Below, piece by piece: positions 7,637 to 37,501 of a DNA stretch of 56,698 nucleotides (position 1 is the first letter of the stretch; each line of letters starts with the position of its first letter). The position numbers were made by a program, and so were the translations under genes. The notes beneath the pieces are model-generated. The model was not told the origin of the DNA, searched no databases, and worked only from the letters and a program-made list of their open reading frames with translations. Origin of the DNA: Chamaesiphon sp. 341R_metabat_111 (GTDB taxonomy: Bacteria > Cyanobacteriota > Cyanobacteriia > Cyanobacteriales > Chamaesiphonaceae); assembly GCA_025351825.1 (NCBI GenBank), contig JANXVE010000080.1, positions 1 to 56,698 of the forward strand, read 5' to 3'.

Positions 7637-10600
7637 CTACACCCCTACTGGCTGTTCTAACTTAGCAACAATATCTAATAGATCCTTCTCAGATTGGGGC
7701 TTGGTGAGGTAATCTTTGGCACCTAGAGTCATTGCTAATTGACGATGTTTTTGACCACCGCGTGTGGTGAGCATAACGATCGGAATTTGGGACAACTTGG
7801 GATCTTGGCGGCAATGGCTGAGGAATTCAAAGCCATTCATTTGCGGCATCTCAATATCGCACACTACCAGTCGAATCCGAGGATGTTCTTGGAGCTTTAA
7901 TAATCCTTCGCGACCATGACCCGCTTGGATTACTTGGCAACCAGCTTTGGTGAGAGAGCGAACCAAGCTTTGACGCTGAACGAGGGAATCATCGACGATT
8001 AGTACCTGCAATTGTTTGCCTGGTTTAGCTGGGTTGCGGTTGGCAATTTCCTCTAGCTTTTCGGCTACTTCGACGGGGACTCGATCTGCTGCTGGAGCTA
8101 GGGCAGGGCGTGCTACCTGTGGTAGTGCTGGCAAGTTCGAGGGAGTGGTAGAAGTTGAGGTATTTGTGCTAACTCGCCCTAGTAATTCGACTGGATCGAT
8201 CGCCAGTGTCAGACTACCATCACCCAGAACGCTATAACCTTGGATATAGCTGGGCATTCCAAAGGTTTGACCGAGGGATTTGACGACTAGTTCTTGCTCG
8301 ACTAAGATGCGGCTGACTTCGAGACAGACTTGTTCGTTGTCAATATCGAGGAGAAGTAGAGCGTTAGTGGCGTTTTTGGCTTTAGTGGGAAAGAGATTTG
8401 TGGCTGTTTCGTTGGTGCCAATCTCGCACTGGTAGTCGATCAGACTATTGACGGCATAAATCGGGATCAGCTTGCGCTCTTCACCGTCACCCCACTGGAG
8501 AAATTTGGATGTACCGCCTGTAAATAAAGATTGAGTTTTAATCCGATCCGCTGGTGGTAATAGTACCTGGCTAATTGACTCAGAGCGCAAGGCGTATACG
8601 GATCCTGCTGATTCACAAATCATTAATCGAGTTGTGGTCAGATTGAGCGGGAACTGCATCACAAAGGTGGTACCTTTGCCGAGGACAGATCGAACATCGA
8701 TCGTGCCGTGTAAGGCCCCAATCCGGTCACGGACGACATCCAAACCGATGCCGCGACCTGAAAGATCGTTTACTTTTTCAGCGGTGGAGAAGCCTGGTGC
8801 GAACATGATTTCGGCGAGTTCGGCTTCGGTGGCTAGATGGCTGGGATCTAGTAAGTTCATATCGATCGCCCGTTGCCGGATTCTGACCCAGTTTAAGCCT
8901 TGTCCATCGTCGCTAACTTCAATTTTGGTGCGATTGCCTTGATGGTAGGCTTTGATGGTGAGTTTACCAGTTTCGGACTTGCCTTGAGCTGCGCGGACTT
9001 CAGGAGCTTCGACACCGTGATCGTAAGCATTCCGAACTAGATGCAGCAATGGATCGTAGAGTTTTTCAGCAATGATTTTGTCGATCGAAACTTCACTCCC
9101 GATTAGCTCTAACTTGGCAGGTTTGCGATGGGAAGCGATCATCTGCTGGAGTAGTCGGGGGAAGCGATTGAGGACGGTAGAAATCTCTACCATCCGAGCT
9201 TCAAACAGTTCTGATTGAGCTTCGGCGAGCAATTGTTTGCGTTTGCCCAAGGTCATCCGCGATTTTTGGGTCATCTCGAATAATGTGCTAACTTTGATGC
9301 CCAGATCGGTGATGTCGTCGGTGAAATTTTGCAACAGGATGCTCAATTCACTGTAGACATCAAGTTCCATGCTATCAAAATAAGAGCTGAGTTCGACAGC
9401 CTTTTTATTTTTCTTACCTCTGGTTTTAGCTGTGCGACGGGAAGCAGATTTTGACCGTTCACCGAGCAAGGTATTGTTATCAGCCCAGTCATTTACGAGC
9501 CGGAGTTTCTGCTCACAGCGACGATATTGTTCGACAGTTTCTTGCGCCATTGCTTGCAACTGTTCGGAGCGGAGATATTGTTGATTGTCATCAATCAATA
9601 GTTCACCAATGGTATGGCTGAGACGTTCGAGTTGGACAGTGGCAACTCTGACACTTACTAGTGGTTCGGCTTGAGCTTCACGTTCGGTGGCTGGATTTTC
9701 CTTGGCGTTATTTGCTGCCACCTGGAGTTCCTCAGCCATCGATCCTGGATGTTCGAGGGAAATTGACCCGAAGATTCGATCGATCCCAGATCTGGCAGTT
9801 AGAGCCAGAGTGGAGCTAGTCGGAGATTCAATTAGTTCGATCGGATATTCACGCTGAGTTAGAGCTAGATCGATTGATTCTGCTTCAAAGAAAGAACTAA
9901 CTTCGATAATTTCCAAGTCATCGTCAACTATTGCAACTGAATCATCGATCTCTGAAACTGAGTTACTAGTATCGACTAATGATAACCAATCTTCACTCGC
10001 AGATGCAGTACTTGAATCTGTGACTTCTACAGATACTTCTGGAATTGAATCATCGACTAATGACAACCAGTCTTCGCTAGTAGAGGTAGTACTTGAATCT
10101 GTGACTTCTACAGATATTTCTGGAGTTAAATCATCGACTAATGACAACCAGTCTTCGCTAGTAGAGGTAGTACTTGAACCTGTGACTTCTACAGATACTT
10201 CTGGAGCTGAATCATCGACTAGCGATAACCAATCCTCACTTGCAGATGCAGTAGTTGATTCTACCTTGTCGCTACTAACTGAATCATCAAATTCAGCCAA
10301 TGATAACCAATCGCTAGCATCATCCACAGAGCTGAATTGCACTGATGATAAATCCCCAGAATGTTCAGTCCAAGCATCTAGTTCTGATGATACCTGACCC
10401 CCGACAGAGCGATCTCCACCAATAATCGCAATTTGGGCTTGCTGAAAATTGGCCAGAGCGATGGGTGCGAGTTCTAAGGCTCTGGCTGGGTGGCGATCCA
10501 ATGCTGAGAGGGTGGTGGTGGCAATTGCCGCAATTCCTGGCAGACTATAGGATCCACCTAATTCTAATAAAAATTCGGCTAGCGATCGCAGACTTTCACT

Positions 10601-11146
10601 CACTTTACCAGCATTTTTACTGGCGATCGCGGTAGCTAGATCTTGGAGATCTTGGGGGATACTATCGGTAAAAATTGAGCCAATTACGTCGAAGCCGAGT
10701 TCGGCGGCGGTAGGTAGGGGTGTTTCCCGTCCAAAGAAGTCGCCTAAATGATCCTGAAGCTTGGCAAATAATGTCGCCGTCCGTTCGAGGGTAGCTGCTT
10801 CGTCGTAGGGAATGCCTGCGAGTAACGCACTCAAGGGGTCATATAGGCAATCGTAGCCCTCCAATAGCAGCGAACCCAGTTCCGCATCAATTTCTAGTTC
10901 GGCTGGGTAGAGAGCCTGGAAGACATCTTCCAAGTGATGGGCGATGGTTTCGATCGTCTTGAACCCACAATTGGCGGCACTACCCTTGATGGTGTGTGCA
11001 GCCCGCATCAGGGTATGGACGCGCTCGATCGTTTTTTCTTCGACTAGTACGACTAGCGTTTCTTCGATGGTTTGGAGTAGTTCCGCCGCTTCGATCTCAA
11101 AATATCGATCGAGTGACTCTTGAAAATCTTGATCGTCGGTGGTCAT
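7637..11146 (-). CDS. CheA-type hybrid histidine kinase (PixL/PilL-like) with C-terminal receiver
   Basis: An 1169-residue kinase. The N-terminal Hpt domain contains RAAHTIKGSAANCG with the phospho-accepting His. A second, degenerate helical segment (about 160-240) lacks that motif. An acidic linker (about 284-392) carries 27-residue repeats around SEDWLSLVDD. Then come a dimerisation region, the HATPase (LVRNAYDHGVEAPE, DDGQGL, GRGIGLDVV), a CheW-like domain, and a receiver (LIVDDSLVQRQ, CDIEMPQMNG, KPQ). This is the layout of cyanobacterial phototaxis/pilus motility CheA proteins. It would phosphorylate the CheY and PatA-type regulators encoded upstream. The start is ATG 11146. Confidence 0.92.
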   Translation of the reverse strand: MTTDDQDFQESLDRYFEIEAAELLQTIEETLVVLVEEKTIERVHTLMRAAHTIKGSAANCGFKTIETIAHHLEDVFQALYPAELEIDAELGSLLLEGYDCLYDPLSALLAGIPYDEAATLERTATLFAKLQDHLGDFFGRETPLPTAAELGFDVIGSIFTDSIPQDLQDLATAIASKNAGKVSESLRSLAEFLLELGGSYSLPGIAAIATTTLSALDRHPARALELAPIALANFQQAQIAIIGGDRSVGGQVSSELDAWTEHSGDLSSVQFSSVDDASDWLSLAEFDDSVSSDKVESTTASASEDWLSLVDDSAPEVSVEVTGSSTTSTSEDWLSLVDDLTPEISVEVTDSSTTSTSEDWLSLVDDSIPEVSVEVTDSSTASASEDWLSLVDTSNSVSEIDDSVAIVDDDLEIIEVSSFFEAESIDLALTQREYPIELIESPTSSTLALTARSGIDRIFGSISLEHPGSMAEELQVAANNAKENPATEREAQAEPLVSVRVATVQLERLSHTIGELLIDDNQQYLRSEQLQAMAQETVEQYRRCEQKLRLVNDWADNNTLLGERSKSASRRTAKTRGKKNKKAVELSSYFDSMELDVYSELSILLQNFTDDITDLGIKVSTLFEMTQKSRMTLGKRKQLLAEAQSELFEARMVEISTVLNRFPRLLQQMIASHRKPAKLELIGSEVSIDKIIAEKLYDPLLHLVRNAYDHGVEAPEVRAAQGKSETGKLTIKAYHQGNRTKIEVSDDGQGLNWVRIRQRAIDMNLLDPSHLATEAELAEIMFAPGFSTAEKVNDLSGRGIGLDVVRDRIGALHGTIDVRSVLGKGTTFVMQFPLNLTTTRLMICESAGSVYALRSESISQVLLPPADRIKTQSLFTGGTSKFLQWGDGEERKLIPIYAVNSLIDYQCEIGTNETATNLFPTKAKNATNALLLLDIDNEQVCLEVSRILVEQELVVKSLGQTFGMPSYIQGYSVLGDGSLTLAIDPVELLGRVSTNTSTSTTPSNLPALPQVARPALAPAADRVPVEVAEKLEEIANRNPAKPGKQLQVLIVDDSLVQRQSLVRSLTKAGCQVIQAGHGREGLLKLQEHPRIRLVVCDIEMPQMNGFEFLSHCRQDPKLSQIPIVMLTTRGGQKHRQLAMTLGAKDYLTKPQSEKDLLDIVAKLEQPVGV
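9973..10296 (-). repeat. 81-bp tandem repeat inside cheA (27-aa units)
   Basis: Copies begin with CGACTA at 9973, 10054, 10135 and 10216, exactly 81 bases apart. The fourth is diverged, and a short degenerate copy follows near 10297. Each unit encodes SEDWLSLVDD followed by a Ser/Thr/Glu/Val-rich spacer. The length keeps the frame intact. Confidence 0.9.
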
Positions 11147-11164
11147 GGGGGTTGGGGGTTGGGA

Positions 11165-11332
11165 GTTTGGGGTTGGGGGGGGAGGCTTTAGGCTTTGGGC
11201 TTTAGGCTTTGGGGGAAAGAAAGGCTTTGGGCTTTGGGCTTTAGGGAATGTGGAAGTTAGCGTTTGGAGATTAGGGAATTCAACCCTAATCTCTAACCCT
11301 AAAGCCTAAAGCCCAAAGCCTAATCCCTAACC
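11165..11332. repeat. STRR block between MCP and cheA genes
   Basis: Almost the whole 186-base spacer consists of G-rich heptamers (GGCTTTG / GGCTTTA), followed by their reverse complement (CCTAAAG). The two halves could form a long imperfect hairpin in the mRNA between the receptor and kinase genes. Confidence 0.75.
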
Positions 11333-14300
11333 CTAGTCCACCTTAAAGCGACTAACGCTAGTCTCTAACACCTCAGAGGTGGTAATCAACTGTTGGCAAG
11401 ACTGGGCGATTTGGGTGGCACTGTCAGAGGTGAGGTTGGCAATCATTGCTACATCAGTCATTACTTCAGTCAGTTTTTGGGACTGTTTGTTTTGAGTGTT
11501 GGCTGATTTACCGATCTCTTTGACGAGTTCGCTGATTTGGCTAGTTGCTACTACGATCTCGCTGAGACTTTGGCGGGTTTCGTTGACCAGGTTGGTACCT
11601 TGAACGACTTGGGCGATGCCGATTTCCATTGCTTCGGTTACGTCGTTGGTGTCGATCCGGATTTCGTCTACCAGCCGTTCGATTTCAGTGGTAGCGTTGG
11701 CAGATTGATAAGCCAGAGAGCGAACCTCATCGGCTACTACCGCAAATCCTTTACCATATTGTCCGGCGCGGGTTGCTTCGATCGAAGCGTTCAGGGCCAG
11801 CAGGTTGGTTTGGGTAGCGAAGTTTTCAATCAGGTTGACTACTTTGGAGATCTTTTGGAAGGTTTCACCCAAGCGTTTGATTTTCTTGGCGGTGGTTGAT
11901 ACGGTCGAGCGGATTTCGAGAATCTCCTCTACAGTGTTTTCCATCAAGGCATCGCCAGTTTGGACGGTGCGGTTAGCGGATTGAACTACTAGCTCGACCT
12001 TTTGGGCGAAGTCGGAAACTTCTTGACTGGAAGCCGCCATCAAGTCTACCTGGATCAAGGCTCGATCGAGTTGTTCGAGTTCTTGTTCGGCTTGAGCGGA
12101 GAGGTTGTTGACCAGCATGTTGTTTTCGATCGAAGTCGTACTTACGCTGGTTGCAGCGGTTTGGACTTGGCGCACCAGTTCCCGCAGGCTTTGAATCGTG
12201 GTGTTGTAACCATCGGCGATGGTGCCGATCTCGGTTTCAGATAGGGGCGCGCGGACGGTGAGATCGCCTCGGAAGGATGGTCCGATCGCTTTGAGGACGC
12301 GGAGAGCTTCTGATTCTAGTTCTTGGCGGTTGGCGCGTTCTCGATCGACGATTGCCGATAGTTCTTGCTCTTGAACCTTAACCCGATCCAGGTATTCAGC
12401 AAGCTGGAGGGCGACACCGATTTGGAGGGCAACTTGCTCGATTACCGCTCGTTCGGAAGCATCCCAAATGCGGGGACCATCGTTTTGATAGACTCCGAGC
12501 AGTCCCCACAGCACACCACCTTTGAAAATCGGGGCGAGAATGTAGGCTCTGGCTTGATATTTTTCTAGTGATTGAATGTAGCAATCAGGGAAGTTTTTGG
12601 TGTAAATATCATTAACGGCGGTGGATTTTTGACCCTTGGCATATTTACCACCTTTAGTATTTTGGAGGTAGGTATCTTCTTCGGTGATGTCTTTTTCCGA
12701 CCATTTCCGCAGCAGACAGCGATCGTTACCAGTCCGATTGCCACTGAGTACGGAATCTCTATCCTGATCGACGAGGAGGGAAACCCAGCCACTACCGACG
12801 GATTCGGCAACGACTTGACCACTCCAGTCAGGGTTGAACTGATAAACTACAGATCGATCGGCTTTGGAAGCTTGGCGGATTTCTTGGACGACGCTAGAGA
12901 AGACATCATCAACTACGAGTGACTGACGAATTCGATCGGCAATTCGATTGATGGTTTGCTCTTGATCCGCACGTTTTTGAAGCTGTTTGATATAGTCGAT
13001 TTGCTCCATCGCAATTCCGACTTGCAGACCCATCTGGCGGAGAGTTTCGACTTCTTCTTCCCGCCATTTGCGGGTACCAGTATTTTGGTATGCCCCAATC
13101 AGTCCCCACAGTTTCCGGTTGGCACCGAAGACTGGTGCCAGCATGTAGGCTCTGGCTTCAAACTGCTCTAGGAGCTGGATGTGGCAAGTTTGATGGCCTT
13201 GGGTATAGATGTCATCGACGGCAAAGCATTCACCATCTTTATAACGACCACCTTGGGTGCGTTGGAGGAAGGTATCTTGGACGATGTGAACGGTTTTAAT
13301 CAAGTCAACCCAACCAGGGGCAGCAGATTCAGCGATAAACCGACCACTCCAATCTGCGTCGAATTGATAGATTGCCAACCTGTCACTATTGAGTAGTTTC
13401 CGACCATCTTGGGTCGCAACTTGGAAGACAGTTTGCTCATCTTTGGCGGTACGGAGCCGCTCTTGGAGCTTGGACAGTCCCCGCTCCCGTTGCAGCCGCT
13501 CTTCCATCTGCTTGGATTGGAATTGGCTCTGGCGACGGCTAGCGGTCTGCTGAAGTGGGAAGCTAAAGGTTTTCGCATGTTCCAACATTGCTTTGAGTTC
13601 GGACTCTTGCCAGTTCCGCGCACCGGAGTTTTGGTATACGCCCAACATGCCGATTAGTTGGCTGTTTTGAATCACGGGCACGACGATATACGCCTTCATT
13701 TGCAGTGGTTCGAGGGATTCGAGCAAGCATCGATCGAATCCTTTGGTGGTAATATCGTTGACGACGTAATAAGCCTTACAATTTTCCGGCGTAATCGAGT
13801 AGTCCATGTCTAGGGATGTGCCAGCTTTAGCCCAGTTCACACCGACTGATTCAGCGATGACTTGACTACTCCAGTCGGCATTGTAAGCCACCACCATTGC
13901 CCGATCCGCTTGGAGTGTATTGCGGATATCATCTAGGGTGGTTTGCATCAGCTCTTGGGCTTCGATCTCGATCGCGGCCATCAAGTCCCGCCGCTGAGAT
14001 AATTGCAGGAGGGGTTGATTTGGTTGGAGGGCGAGGGTAAGTTCTAGGGACAGTTGGGACAGGCAAGTAGTCTCGGTTTCTGACCACTGGCGCGCTCGAT
14101 CGCACTGATGAACTACCAGTAGACCCCAAACGCGACCGAGGCTATAAGTATCGGTGCTGGCGTTGTAGCCATTAACTAAAATTGGGATCGCGACTGTGGA
14201 TTGGACTTGATATTGGTCTAAGATTTGTTTCTGGTAGGGGTTGGTTTCGCTATTGATCAGCGAAATCGACCGTTGAGATCGATCGTCAGTCAGTTGCTCG

Positions 14301-14818
14301 AAGCCAAAGCCAACCTGAGGAATTTCGACATTTAGAGTCGGAGTCAAGCCCGATTGAACTGCTTCGGCGATCACTCTACCCATGCCAGCTTCAGTCAATT
14401 GATAGACCAAAACGCGATCGGCATTGAGCAATGCTTTGATTTCACTAACGGCACTATTGAGTGCCGCCATTGGTGCCCCAGCTTGTCTGATTTTAGTCGA
14501 GATTTTATGGACTCGATCGGCATCAACACTCGATTCAGCAGCTACAGTTACCGGACTAGCTGCGGTCAAAAATCCGGCTAATTCTCTAGCTTTACGGAGG
14601 TTTTGGCGCAGGGGTTCAGCGTTGGAACTATTGGAATTTTCTAATTTAACTTGAGCATCTTGGAGAATTGCTAATAATTGCTGTTTGGCGGTAGTACTAT
14701 TCATAGGATGATCTAGATTGGATAGCTGTTTTTGCTCGATGGATGAGGCGATGGAGTTAATCGGATCTGAAGTTTTATCAGATTTTTCGTCTGCCGAACC
14801 AAATATACTTTTTAACAC
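11333..14818 (-). CDS. methyl-accepting chemotaxis protein with four GAF domains (PixJ/PtxD-like)
   Basis: An 1161-residue receptor without any obvious membrane segment. It has GAF1 about 105-265, GAF2 about 290-425, GAF3 about 452-605, GAF4 about 623-805, a HAMP-like linker about 835-895 and an MCP signalling tip with [17 protein letters not shown]3 has Cys545-His546 ([11 protein letters not shown]) and GAF4 has Cys746-Tyr747 ([10 protein letters not shown]), both at the position of the bilin-attaching Cys of cyanobacteriochromes. GAF2 has Cys364 in a similar place; GAF1 lacks one. It may therefore be a photoreceptor for phototaxis, or the GAFs may sense something else. The start is ATG 14818. 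It lies between cheW and cheA in the operon. Confidence 0.9.
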
Positions 14819-14877
14819 TGGTGATAATTTTTATTACTAAATTTTGGTAATTGATTTAATCGTGACTAATGCTAGTT

Positions 14878-15471
14878 CTAAATAATTCCGGCTGCATCGC
14901 CTTTGGCGCAGCGAATCACCTGGTGCAGATCTACGACTACTCGCGATCGAGATTCAGGATCGATAAAGTAGCCTGATAAAAACGAACGAATTCGATCGGT
15001 AAACATCGCTTCGCCGATCGCCAGACATTGGTGCGGGTCATAGGTTTCGATCGTGCCAACTCGATCGATCAAGAGGGCAACTGTCTCATTTTGAACCTGG
15101 AATAACATCCCCATGCCAGTGGCAACTGCTGCGGACTGGTGATAACAAGCTCCACCCATCAGGTGGGCTAAATCTACGACCCAAGTTGCTTTTCCACCAT
15201 AGTTAATAATTCCCAATAATGAGCTGCCCATCTGGGGCACAGGTAAAATTTCAGCCAGTGAAATCTTAATTGTGGCCTGTAAATTAGCTAGGGGGATTAG
15301 GGCTTGTAAGCTGTCACCGATGGTAAAACCTAAGAATCTTTGGGCTTCATCACTGTTGGCAGTACTTACTGAATTAGCAGATCGATCCGGTTGGTGTGAC
15401 TGACGATCTAGCTGGGCCGAACGTGTTTTGTTAATAGTTTGATTCATAACTGCTAAATTTAGATAACTCAA
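14878..15471 (-). CDS. CheW-like adaptor protein (PixI/PilI-like)
   Basis: A 197-residue protein. After a roughly 45-residue polar N-terminal extension comes a CheW domain: FTIGDSLQALIPLANLQATI, SSLLGIINYGGKATWVVDLA, and VALLIDRVGTIETYDP. It should dock the MCP onto the kinase. The start ATG overlaps the cheY stop by 4 bases, so the two genes are translationally coupled. Confidence 0.88.
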   Translation of the reverse strand: MSYLNLAVMNQTINKTRSAQLDRQSHQPDRSANSVSTANSDEAQRFLGFTIGDSLQALIPLANLQATIKISLAEILPVPQMGSSLLGIINYGGKATWVVDLAHLMGGACYHQSAAVATGMGMLFQVQNETVALLIDRVGTIETYDPHQCLAIGEAMFTDRIRSFLSGYFIDPESRSRVVVDLHQVIRCAKGDAAGII

Positions 15472-15830
15472 CCAATTAATCGATCGATTGTTGCCAATAA
15501 AGTTGGCTCATCTACTGTCTTGCTCAAATAAGCATCAGCACCGCTCATATCGCCCCAGGTGCGATCGATCTGCTTGTCCTTAGTTGAATACATCACGATC
15601 GGAATAGCTTGAGTTGATGGCTCAGTTTTGAGTTTGCGACATAGCTCAAATCCACTTTCTCCAGGCAGGATCACATCCAGGACGATCAGATTTGGCTTAA
15701 AGCTTTTAAGTCTAAGCTCTGCTTCTTCCCCACTAGTCACTACCAAGATCGAAAATCCTTTGCCTTCCAAACATTTCTTCAGCTTATCTGCCTCTAACTT
15801 ACTATCTTCAACAATTAAAATTTGACTCAT
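15468..15830 (-). CDS. CheY-like single-domain response regulator (PixH/PilH-like)
   Basis: A 120-residue receiver domain without an output domain. The acidic pocket is IVEDSKLEADKL. The phospho-acceptor Asp is in LIVLDVILPGESGFEL, followed by VMYSTKD and the conserved Lys in LSKTV. It lies 2 bases after the PatA-type regulator and overlaps cheW by 4 bases. It would be phosphorylated by the cluster's CheA and control pilus-dependent movement. Confidence 0.92.
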   Translation of the reverse strand: MSQILIVEDSKLEADKLKKCLEGKGFSILVVTSGEEAELRLKSFKPNLIVLDVILPGESGFELCRKLKTEPSTQAIPIVMYSTKDKQIDRTWGDMSGADAYLSKTVDEPTLLATIDRLIG

Positions 15831-15832
15831 GA

Positions 15833-17083
15833 CTACTTACTTACTCCAACAAGGTGTTTTCCGATCATTTGTAAAACTGCTTCTGACTCGACTGGTTTGC
15901 CCAGAAAACCATTCGCTCCAACCATTTTCGATCGCATTCGATCGATCAATCCATCTTTACCAGTCAGAATAATCACTGGAATATGTTTTAAACTAGGTGT
16001 TTTCCTAATTTGTTCACATACTTCATAACCATTGGTAATCGGCATTAATAAATCCAGAAAGATAAAGTCTGGCTTATTTCTAATCAAGCTCGGCATGATT
16101 TTGAGCGGATCCTGAACTCCATAATGCCGAAATCCATTCGCTGACAAAATTCGCTCCAGCGACTGATAAATTAAGAGACTGTCATCAATACAAGCAATTA
16201 ATGGAGCCTGTTTGGTTTGAGGATTTCCCAGTGCTGCTGAGTTGCCAGTTGGCGGTCCAGATCTACTTCCTAGTGGAGAGTGTGTGTCACTATTAGCAAC
16301 TGGATTAGCAGGTTTAGCTGTCTTCGATTTTGGCTGTGGTAATAAGCCGATAAAACCAGACCGAAATAACGGTAATAATGTCCTCGTAAAATCTGCCACA
16401 GATTGCCGATTATTCGCTGCTAATCGGCGGATCGATCGATTACCATCAATTGCTAAAACCGTATGGTATAAATCGGATCCATCCAGAACTTTGGAAATTT
16501 CTTCACTAGACTTAGCAATCATCGGAAATAAGCTAGGTGCGTAAACTCCCAACTCTAATTTCGACCATTCTTGCCATGTTTGAATCGATTTAGTTAAAAT
16601 TGGCTCGATTTCTAGGACTGGTAAAACTAAATTTAATTCAGTATTTCCGGCTCCAGTTTCGATAACTTTATAAAATAGGCGATTGCCACTGTGCTGGCTA
16701 AATTGGATGATATCGAACAAACATTCAACAACCATACCCGTCACCAGATTTGCACACTTTTGTCTGTCTATTAATTCATCAGTTAATAGACTTGCTAATG
16801 TATGCGAATCCAATGGCTTTTCAATTGGATTGTTGATATCTGCTAACTTATTTAAGGGTATGTCTAATTGAGCTAAACCTAAATGCCGCTGCCAGCAATC
16901 AAGTAGATCTACGCCACCACTAACCCAACCCACTCGTCCCAATCGAAACGAAAATGTCCAGCTTAAGCTTGGCTCGATCTTGACAACGAGATTGCCGCTG
17001 AAAGAATTAGCCTTAATATTTTTTAATTGAATAATTAGATCTTTAAAACTCAGAGCTACTGGTTTATCGTTAGTTTGAACCAT
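15833..17083 (-). CDS. PatA-type response regulator (DUF4388/PATAN + receiver; PixG/PilG-like)
   Basis: The N-terminal half is a PATAN/DUF4388 domain (ALSFKDLIIQLKNIKANSFS, then FRLGRVGWVSGGVD). A roughly 50-residue Pro/Ser-rich linker leads to a C-terminal receiver: ACIDDSLLIYQS, phospho-Asp in FIFLDLLMPITNG, LTGKDG, and Lys in LGKPV. I chose ATG 17083 (MVQTNDKPVALSF), 416 residues, because it has a purine-rich GGGGTG upstream. A 21-residue longer reading begins with residues that look like leader sequence. It is the first gene of the phototaxis/motility operon. Confidence 0.88.
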   Translation of the reverse strand: MVQTNDKPVALSFKDLIIQLKNIKANSFSGNLVVKIEPSLSWTFSFRLGRVGWVSGGVDLLDCWQRHLGLAQLDIPLNKLADINNPIEKPLDSHTLASLLTDELIDRQKCANLVTGMVVECLFDIIQFSQHSGNRLFYKVIETGAGNTELNLVLPVLEIEPILTKSIQTWQEWSKLELGVYAPSLFPMIAKSSEEISKVLDGSDLYHTVLAIDGNRSIRRLAANNRQSVADFTRTLLPLFRSGFIGLLPQPKSKTAKPANPVANSDTHSPLGSRSGPPTGNSAALGNPQTKQAPLIACIDDSLLIYQSLERILSANGFRHYGVQDPLKIMPSLIRNKPDFIFLDLLMPITNGYEVCEQIRKTPSLKHIPVIILTGKDGLIDRMRSKMVGANGFLGKPVESEAVLQMIGKHLVGVSK

Positions 17084-17354
17084 TATTTCACCCCATCCAT
17101 CTACACTATGAGATCGCCTGTCAAATTCAAAGCCACCTGCGGTCACAGAAGCACTGTACTTACCAGAACGTTTGCCAATGCAGAAAGAGATCGATCCTTG
17201 ATGTCTACCTAGCTATTGTTCCCACAACGATCTCAAAAGCAAACAATTCCCACGCCAAATTTCTCACACTTTTGGCGATGGTGCTGTTTTGATATATTTT
17301 TTGCAGATAATATGTATACTCAGATCTTGCACAAGTACTGAGATATTAGTAATT

Positions 17355-34807: not shown

Positions 34808-37501
34808 ATGGACATTTACTGCACTCGTCTTCATTGCGAACAACCACTAAACTCGTTCGTCGATCTAGATGATAGTAAATTATTAGAAACTACAGCTCAA
34901 CAGCATTGTGCAAATTGTGGGATGCCGCTAATTTTGGAGGGACGCTATGTACCGCTAGAATTGTTACAGCATGATGAACTAAGCACGACGTTTCTCGGCA
35001 AAGATCTACATGCCGCAGATTTTAGGCATTGCACAATCGAGCAACTCCAAATCGATCCTAGCTTTAGTCCCAGTCAAATCGAAACCGCGACAAAAATATT
35101 CGATCGTGAAGTGAAAGTTTTAGGTAAACTAGGCGAACATCCCAAAATTCCGCGTCTACTAGATTCACTCGAAATCATTGCCCCCGCAGCTCCAGATCTT
35201 CCATCCCAAAAGTTTTTATACTTAGTTCAAGAATATATTGACGGTCAAAATTTAGAGGCTGAACTACTCGCCCAGGGTAAGTTTACAGAAGCAGAAGTTA
35301 TTGTTGTCTTGAGAGAGGTTGCCAGAATTTTAGAGTTTGTCCACTTTCAAGGATCGATTCACCGCAATATCAAACCAGCAAAGATCCTCCGCGACTCGCT
35401 CGGCAAAATCTATCTAACTGATTTTGGAGCTGTGAAGCAAATTAATGCTGAGACAGGCGATATCACTGGCGATCTCTCACCACGCAAGTCCAAGTCTGGA
35501 TTCAGATTAGAATACACGCTATCGAATAACTACTTAAGACCAGAAATATACCCATCTTCAGACTTATATAGTTTAGCTGTGACTTGTATAAACTTACTCA
35601 CAGGTAAACAGCCTAACCAATTATTTAATATTGATACAAATACTTGGCAGTGGCGCGAACCAGGTCTTCAAGTCTGTGATGCTTTAGGGGCAATTCTCGA
35701 TCGAATGTTGCAACAACTTCCTCCCGATCGATTTGGCTCGGCTAGAGATGTCTTAGATGTCTTAGATGACAGTTTGGGAGCACCGATTCTAAGTATCCCA
35801 GTAGATATTATTAGCGCAAATGAGTTCAGTCTTGAGACTAATCCTAGCGTTATGATCCTAGATAAGCCTTATGACGATCCTTTTCAGCTCGATGAGAGTT
35901 TTTTCCAATTAGATGATGATTTTCTTCAGCTTGATCGCGATTTGTTTCAACTTGACGATCGCTTATTTGAAGATGAAAAAACTCCGACACCACTCAGCAA
36001 TGCTCCCCTACAAATCATCCCTAAAGTTATTCCAAAACCCGATCGACAGTGGCAGAAAATTGGTGTATTAGGGTTAGGAATCACTGGGTTGAGTGCAATG
36101 ATTGTTCTTGGCTTTTCGCGATTGTTTGAGCAGAAACCGACGATGAGTGATACCCTCACCCAAGATGCTCAAGCCGCAATGGTTCGCCATAGTAGCGTGG
36201 GTGAACGGATTTTAGTTGGGGTCGAAGGCAATCGTGATACTTATAAATTCAAAGAGTTGAAAAAGTTGGGAGTTGCGGCGATCGCTAGCAAGAACTATCC
36301 TGAAGCTGTAGTCAAATTGCAAGCAGCTTTAGTCGAAAATCCTAATTCACCAGAAACTTTAATCTATCTCAACAATGCCTTAATTGGTGAAAAGAAAAGT
36401 TATACAATCGCTGTCGCCGCCCCAATCGAGAGATCCCTCGACAGGGCTTCTGAAATGTTGCGGGGATTTGCTCAAGCTCAAGCAGAGATGAACCAAGTCG
36501 GTGATATCAATGAAGCTAAAATCAAATTAAGAATAGTCGATGATAGTGACGATCCTAAAACTATTGAAAGCATTGCCTCTGCGGTGATAGATCTACCAGA
36601 AGTTCTTGGTATCGTCGGTCACAATCGCAATGATGTAACGATGAAAGCCGCAAAGATTTACAATCGTAAAAAGCTAGCTTTTATTGCTCCCATTAGTACG
36701 GCAGCTAATTTAACAGGAGCTGGTAAACCATACATTTTTAGAACTAATAATAAAGGAGACGCGATCGCCAGCAAACTTGTCGATCACTTAGTTAATGTCG
36801 ATCGTAAACGTAAAGTAGCTATTTTTTATGTACCTTCTATTGCCGCTAATAATGAATTCAAAACTCAGTTTGCCAATAAGCTAGCTGCTGAAGGCGGCAA
36901 AGTCGTCGGGAGTTTTCCATTTTCTAATGTAGCTACAACTGGATCGTCTTCGGCTGGTTTTGCCTCAGCCTTCGATGCCCAAGCCCATCTCCAACAAGCC
37001 AAAAGCGTGGGTGCAGAAGCAATTCTCCTGCTGTCGGTTGGACGCTCTAGTCGTGAGGCTCTAAGTATCCTCAAGGTTAGATCTGACAAATATCGTGAAT
37101 TGAACGTGTTGAGTGATACTGGTTTGTATAGTTCCAATACGCTGAAGGCTGGTAGAAATGCACGGGGGCTGGTAATGATCGTGCCTTGGCAAGAATCAGA
37201 AAGTAGCCCGCAATTTTCCACAGGTGCCAAACAGTTGTGGAATACCCAAGTTAATTGGGTAACTGCCACATCCTACAACTCGGTAAAGGCTCTAGGTGCC
37301 GCCATCAAAGCCCAAGCATCGCCTTCCCGAACTGGTGTAATGAAGAATCTGGCTAAGAATGAATTCATGGGTGCCTCGGGGCGATTTCAGTTTAAAAACG
37401 GCGAACCTACCGAACGCTATATTCTAGTTAAAGTAGGCAAGACTCCAGCTAATTATAAATATTCTTCGCAAATGGGGTATGACTTTTTGCCATTCGAGTA
37501 A
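34808..37501 (+). CDS. 4-Cys-prefix pseudokinase / transmembrane / periplasmic-binding-protein-like fusion
   Basis: An 897-residue protein. Cys5, Cys10, Cys34 and Cys37 form a zinc-ribbon-like '4-Cys prefix', as in SpkB-type kinases. A protein kinase fold follows (about 45-320). The catalytic loop reads HRNIKPAKI, so Asn187 replaces the catalytic Asp and Lys192 the metal-binding Asn. DFG (205-207) is kept, but the VAIK lysine is not recognisable. Next are an acidic heptad repeat (358-389, FQLDESF-type), a transmembrane helix (about 418-436), a TPR-like segment (about 485-525) and a type 1 periplasmic-binding domain (about 535-897; IKLRIVDDSDDPKTIES, VLGIVGHNRNDVT, KLAFIAPIST). It is probably a receptor-like signalling protein without kinase activity. 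Confidence 0.82.
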   Translation: MDIYCTRLHCEQPLNSFVDLDDSKLLETTAQQHCANCGMPLILEGRYVPLELLQHDELSTTFLGKDLHAADFRHCTIEQLQIDPSFSPSQIETATKIFDREVKVLGKLGEHPKIPRLLDSLEIIAPAAPDLPSQKFLYLVQEYIDGQNLEAELLAQGKFTEAEVIVVLREVARILEFVHFQGSIHRNIKPAKILRDSLGKIYLTDFGAVKQINAETGDITGDLSPRKSKSGFRLEYTLSNNYLRPEIYPSSDLYSLAVTCINLLTGKQPNQLFNIDTNTWQWREPGLQVCDALGAILDRMLQQLPPDRFGSARDVLDVLDDSLGAPILSIPVDIISANEFSLETNPSVMILDKPYDDPFQLDESFFQLDDDFLQLDRDLFQLDDRLFEDEKTPTPLSNAPLQIIPKVIPKPDRQWQKIGVLGLGITGLSAMIVLGFSRLFEQKPTMSDTLTQDAQAAMVRHSSVGERILVGVEGNRDTYKFKELKKLGVAAIASKNYPEAVVKLQAALVENPNSPETLIYLNNALIGEKKSYTIAVAAPIERSLDRASEMLRGFAQAQAEMNQVGDINEAKIKLRIVDDSDDPKTIESIASAVIDLPEVLGIVGHNRNDVTMKAAKIYNRKKLAFIAPISTAANLTGAGKPYIFRTNNKGDAIASKLVDHLVNVDRKRKVAIFYVPSIAANNEFKTQFANKLAAEGGKVVGSFPFSNVATTGSSSAGFASAFDAQAHLQQAKSVGAEAILLLSVGRSSREALSILKVRSDKYRELNVLSDTGLYSSNTLKAGRNARGLVMIVPWQESESSPQFSTGAKQLWNTQVNWVTATSYNSVKALGAAIKAQASPSRTGVMKNLAKNEFMGASGRFQFKNGEPTERYILVKVGKTPANYKYSSQMGYDFLPFE

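Follow-up and report, generated by a model that had tools for sequence, protein, structure and literature searches.

Loss of catalytic residues from the kinase domain of a putative LivJ-like receptor protein in part of the genus Chamaesiphon

Proteins combining a kinase with a periplasmic solute-binding domain were described in 2005 by Krupa and Srinivasan (PMC1262709). In the accessible part of that paper, the examples include a Nostoc PCC 7120 protein, in which the kinase is joined to an ANF-receptor-type domain for branched-chain amino acids, and a Streptomyces coelicolor protein with a solute-binding domain. Therefore, the architecture itself is not new. In the GlnH-GlnX-PknG system of Actinobacteria, a periplasmic binding protein has been proposed, in the sections available, to control a Ser/Thr kinase and to report an amino acid (PMC6069109). 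Cyanobacterial pseudokinases of the CP1 group are linked to COG3899 and are described as having no transmembrane regions in the available sections of PMC12599244, where it is also stated that bacterial pseudokinases have been little tested by experiment. Among 286 cyanobacterial kinases surveyed, five, including SpkE, are devoid of the conserved Asp, and SpkE was inactive according to the excerpted text (PMC2176072).

The gene analysed here lies in a window of 56,698 nucleotides, the whole stretch of DNA under analysis, from Chamaesiphon sp. 341R_metabat_111 (contig JANXVE010000080.1). Its product shares the combination of kinase and binding domain with the proteins of PMC1262709. However, those were presented as kinases in the accessible text, whereas the window protein has lost its catalytic residues. 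GlnH-GlnX-PknG likewise connects an amino-acid-binding protein to a Ser/Thr kinase, but there the components are three distinct proteins and the kinase is active, as far as the available sections of PMC6069109 describe. Catalytic motifs are missing, wholly or in part, from CP1 proteins as they are from the window protein (PMC12599244, sections available). The window protein does not fall within CP1, since no COG3899 domain was found in Pfam and NCBIfam scans and a transmembrane helix is predicted at residues 418-436. The terms 'periplasmic' and 'ligand-binding' are absent from the main text of PMC12599244 on bacterial pseudokinase families, and searches of the open-licence literature turned up no pseudokinase described as carrying a periplasmic-binding domain. 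The pseudokinase history within one genus appears to be new. The features of the gene are as follows.

34808..37501, + strand: whole gene, 897 aa with the stop codon inside the coordinates; 4-Cys prefix, pseudokinase domain (by motif loss), linker, transmembrane helix, TPR-like stretch and periplasmic-binding domain
34808..34939, + strand: 4-Cys prefix, aa 1-44, with Cys 5, 10, 34 and 37 (NF045510 above cut-off)
34940..35782, + strand: pseudokinase domain (by motif loss), aa 45-325 (PF00069, PknB alignment, orthologs)
34964..34990, + strand: former glycine-rich loop, aa 53-61, LQHDELSTT, where intact orthologs have GGFG or GGLG (ortholog alignment)
35039..35041, + strand: Glu78 at the VAIK lysine position (ortholog alignment)
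35366..35368, + strand: Asn187 at the catalytic Asp position of HRD (ortholog alignment)
35381..35383, + strand: Lys192 at the metal-ligand Asn position (ortholog alignment)
35420..35428, + strand: DFG motif, kept, aa 205-207 (ortholog alignment)
35882..35965, + strand: juxtamembrane array, aa 359-386, in which a unit of 7 residues with F/L-Q-L-D at its core is repeated four times (four motif hits; lag-7 self-match 19)
36059..36115, + strand: predicted transmembrane helix, aa 418-436 (hydropathy 2.11, the maximum of the protein)
36254..36346, + strand: TPR-like stretch, aa 483-513 (Pfam, under gathering score)
36383..37498, + strand: LivJ-type periplasmic-binding domain, aa 526-897 (PF13458; solved relatives 4mlc, 3ipc and 2liv)

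The reading frame starts with ATG, and the order of kinase domain, membrane helix and periplasmic-binding domain given by an earlier sequence-only reading was borne out by the ORF list, Pfam, NCBIfam and hydropathy. The 4-Cys prefix, also named there as kept, matched NF045510 at residues 4-41, scoring 31.1 bits where the cut-off is 24, which places the protein in the cyanobacterial 4-Cys kinase group; its cysteines are conserved in 13/13 orthologs. The Pfam Pkinase profile (PF00069) matched residues 94-279 with an E value of 7e-23, so the kinase fold is present by profile, and the best solved relative of the domain is mycobacterial PknB. Orthologs with 82-84% identity (L001/L026, L003/L025) and with 67% (L027) have the same frame and carry the altered residues too; neither is thus a product of chance. 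The AlphaFold2 models of the window protein, aligned with four orthologs (pLDDT 36.3), and of the intact kinase half of G002 (pLDDT 36.2) were unusable, probably because the alignments had only five sequences.

The HRD region of the window protein reads HRNIKPAKIL at residues 185-194. Therefore, the replacement of the catalytic Asp by Asn187 and of the metal-ligand Asn by Lys192, as well as the retention of DFG, had been read correctly. The extent of the degradation had been understated, however, as the losses of the VAIK lysine and of the glycine loop (GGFG to DELS) were overlooked. The APE region is also rewritten. The loss of catalytic residues is well supported: two of the three canonical motifs VAIK, HRD and DFG are gone together with the glycine loop and the metal Asn, and Asp205 alone is retained of the VAIK Lys, HRD Asp, metal Asn and DFG Asp of an active Hanks-type Ser/Thr kinase. 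Its assignment as a pseudokinase is supported by this motif loss.

The family was searched in 11 genomes, nine of them Chamaesiphon. The full-length fused gene was found in 9/9 Chamaesiphon genomes, the window genome (G000) included. Four of the nine encode an intact kinase (G002, G003, G005 and G006) and five a degraded one. G000, G001 and G008 share K78E, D187N, N192K and the change of GGFG to DELS. In G004 the VAIK lysine is replaced by Asp, with the same D-to-N and N-to-K changes as in G000, while G007 has Glu at the VAIK lysine, HRE for HRD and NFG for DFG. DFG is thus kept in 4/5 pseudokinases. Outside the genus, K, D, N and D were all present in 78/78 related kinases (21/21, 40/40 and 17/17), these being the best matches to the window protein and not a random sample. 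The 40 were fetched from listed kinases beyond the 21 earlier loci, and the 17 came from 23 loci (the two best candidates per genome scored) minus six repeats of genes already counted. Unlisted kinases and further listed ones stand outside the 78, the latter for example in G016, G035, G043, G055, G060, G062, G067, G068 and G096 and as second copies in G025 and G052. Judged from these comparisons, the kinase loss is recent and local, and its confinement to part of one genus had escaped the earlier reading.

A search for the same architecture in other cyanobacteria had been suggested. The fusion was seen in G009, G010, G025 and G052 in addition to the nine Chamaesiphon genomes. These four and the four intact Chamaesiphon versions make up the eight intact fused orthologs, whose parts stand in the same order as in the window protein. 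In contrast to the window protein, they have the glycine loop, K, D, N and D, and no FQLD-like motifs. In other cyanobacteria (L178, L040 and L048), a homologous 4-Cys kinase gene is directly followed by a separate gene for a TM-TPR-binding protein. The catalytic residues of these separate kinases are intact, and they carry several C-terminal hydrophobic (TM-like) stretches which are absent from the fused proteins.

The outer part had been described as a periplasmic-binding domain of the transporter or receptor type, and this proved to be LivJ-like. Peripla_BP_6 (Pfam) matched residues 549-877 with an E value of 9e-29 and 101.7 bits against a cut-off of 31.7, and among solved structures the domain is closest to proteins that bind amino acids, for example 4mlc, 3ipc and LivJ (2liv). 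Thr631 aligns with the Thr of the LivJ AAT motif, and the LivJ Ser position is occupied by Asn608; we take both LivJ positions to be amino-acid contact residues. The ligand loop at residues 604-611 reads GHNSSAVS in the outgroup G025 and GHNRNDVT, or close to it, in 9/9 orthologs of the genus. A possible change of ligand would be separate from the kinase loss, because the loop is altered in both intact and dead versions. There is one strong transmembrane candidate, and Lys and Arg are more numerous on its kinase side than on its binding-domain side in 13/13 orthologs. This charge bias predicts a receptor topology with the kinase inside and the binding domain outside. The same genome also encodes an 897-aa frame (L019:166-2856, contig G000:C165) in which a CHAT protease-like domain (Pfam CHAT at 225-360) is joined to the same kind of transmembrane and periplasmic-binding part (Peripla_BP_6 at 586-737). 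The sensor module is therefore combined with more than one kind of inner head.

The location of the changes was compared among the orthologs. In the kinase, 118 positions are invariant in the eight intact orthologs, and 21 of them are changed in all of G000, G001, G008 and G004. These 21 comprise 6/8 catalytic positions and 15/110 of the remaining invariant ones (Fisher p 4e-4). The corresponding numbers were 0/24 in the 4-Cys part, 0/19 in the TPR and 0/101 in the binding domain. In G007, 28/118 positions were changed in the kinase and 1/101 in the binding domain. Intact Chamaesiphon kinases, held out in turn, served as the control and differed at 0-2 of 118-120 invariant positions. By this alignment, the changes preferentially strike catalytic positions and are confined to the kinase half. 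Selection was measured as NG86 pairwise dN/dS only, many deeper pairs being near saturation. For G000-G008 the value was 0.118 in the kinase (dS 0.72) and 0.104 in the binding domain, and for G000-G001 it was 0.125 and 0.117, respectively; pairs of intact orthologs gave 0.06 to 0.11. At a dN/dS of about 0.12 (G000-G008), the degraded kinase domain is, on these estimates, still under purifying selection, and plain decay of an unused gene is disfavoured. The closest pair, G008-G001, gave 0.39 in the kinase at a dS of 0.055, thus from few changes, and 0.144 in the binding domain. Since the kinase value exceeds that of the binding domain, the constraint on the kinase half may have been relaxed to some degree.

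The number of losses was approached with trees. In the kinase-half tree, the five pseudokinases form one clade (support 100/99; third positions 92/94). Four housekeeping genes place the intact G002 beside the pseudokinase carrier G004 (88/93 to 92/96), with G007 outside their group. For the kinase half, a grouping of G002 with G004, G000, G001 and G008 was rejected by the AU test (p 2e-5); for the binding half, pseudokinase monophyly was not rejected (p 0.13). Third-position distances gave no clear breakpoint pointing to intragenic recombination as the cause of the intact G002, for which G007 was the nearest sequence, or almost the nearest, in the majority of the intervals compared.

The linker preceding the helix contains an array that the earlier reading had missed. 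Its 7-residue periodicity is reached in about 1 of 5000 shuffles of the window protein, and Tandem Repeats Finder did not report the array at the DNA level. FQLD-like motifs, a pattern defined after the window protein sequence had been viewed, occur in 5/5 pseudokinases and 0/8 intact orthologs (four each in G000, G008 and G001, two in G004 and three in G007). The periodicity was not significant in G004 (p 0.26) or G007 (p 0.25). As the five carriers are related, the co-occurrence of motifs and pseudokinase counts as one association and not five.

The most economical reading is that the output of the receptor has been switched from phosphorylation to binding. The outer LivJ-like domain would bind a small amino-acid-like ligand, and binding would be relayed through the transmembrane helix to the pseudokinase and the FQLD-repeat linker. 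Both together might act as a ligand-gated scaffold, or as an allosteric or dimerisation partner, for one of the intact Hanks-type kinases of the cell. That a single-pass receptor lost catalysis in its kinase domain within Chamaesiphon, and that the domain was kept under selection for such a non-catalytic signalling role, is a proposition to which we lend about half of our belief. A more specific version, in which a receptor kinase was recently converted within this one genus to a ligand-gated pseudokinase, with the new juxtamembrane array as output surface and the signal shifted from phosphorylation to binding, is put forward more tentatively. Alternatively, the protein could be a ligand sink or a dominant-negative decoy, which keeps the binding of ligand or partner and is beneficial because it does not signal. 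The complete conservation of the binding domain in the four genomes alongside lost catalysis fits this idea, as does the failure to find a separate intact fused copy in G000. However, a pure sink needs neither a kinase domain held at a dN/dS of about 0.12 nor a conserved linker array, and we regard the sink or decoy as rather unlikely.

Two further explanations concern the kinase half itself. It may be decaying after disuse, with the binding half as the part retained; the large changes in the activation loop and the ratio of 0.39 for G008-G001 would then be expected. Such decay is nevertheless improbable in view of the values of 0.118 and 0.125 for the wider pairs, the presence of an internal stop in 0/9 orthologs, and the retention of the HRD His and Arg, DFG and the helix-F Asp252 in the window clade. 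An atypical residual activity, in which a nucleotide is bound and a group transferred by a rearranged mechanism, is hardly more credible. It could be reconciled with the DFG kept in most of the pseudokinases, and a plant pseudokinase with confirmed activity has been reported in the accessible part of PMC9403797, but here the loss takes in the glycine loop, the VAIK lysine, the catalytic Asp and the metal Asn all at once. Sister species carry either an intact or a dead ortholog of the same receptor, in several cases at one shared chromosomal position, and the sensor half is nearly unchanged. The change is therefore open to side-by-side study, and swapping halves between species could ask what the kinase domain serves once it is no longer an enzyme.

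The upstream neighbour of the window gene is a class-III aminotransferase gene (Pfam family), presumably hemL, and the downstream neighbour is a convergent recJ-type gene. In G001, G004, G007 and G008, the gene likewise lies between hemL and recJ. The G002 ortholog adjoins the same aminotransferase gene, recJ is nearby in G003, hemL is about 6 kb away in G006, and the contig of G005 showed neither gene. Neither of the two adjacent genes is a kinase partner, and the proposal of a receptor pseudokinase controlling a true kinase was upheld in part: catalytic loss, the charge-biased helix in 13/13 orthologs and the LivJ-like outer domain agree with it, whereas control of a true kinase finds no adjoining partner gene. 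A look at co-occurring kinases, which had also been recommended, gave at least 10 other kinases with intact motifs in G000 and none adjacent to the window gene. Three other kinase-like proteins of G000 have unusual motifs: L010 has Glu aligned with the VAIK lysine and the sequence HRDLSPEHIV, L023 has HQNIKPENII, and in L020 LIGFS stands at the expected DFG. The window also holds a taxis-like cluster on the minus strand (7637-17146). Its genes encode a CheA-like hybrid at 7637-11146, a methyl-accepting protein at 11333-14818 in which four GAF stretches occur, and, at 15833-17146, a response regulator.
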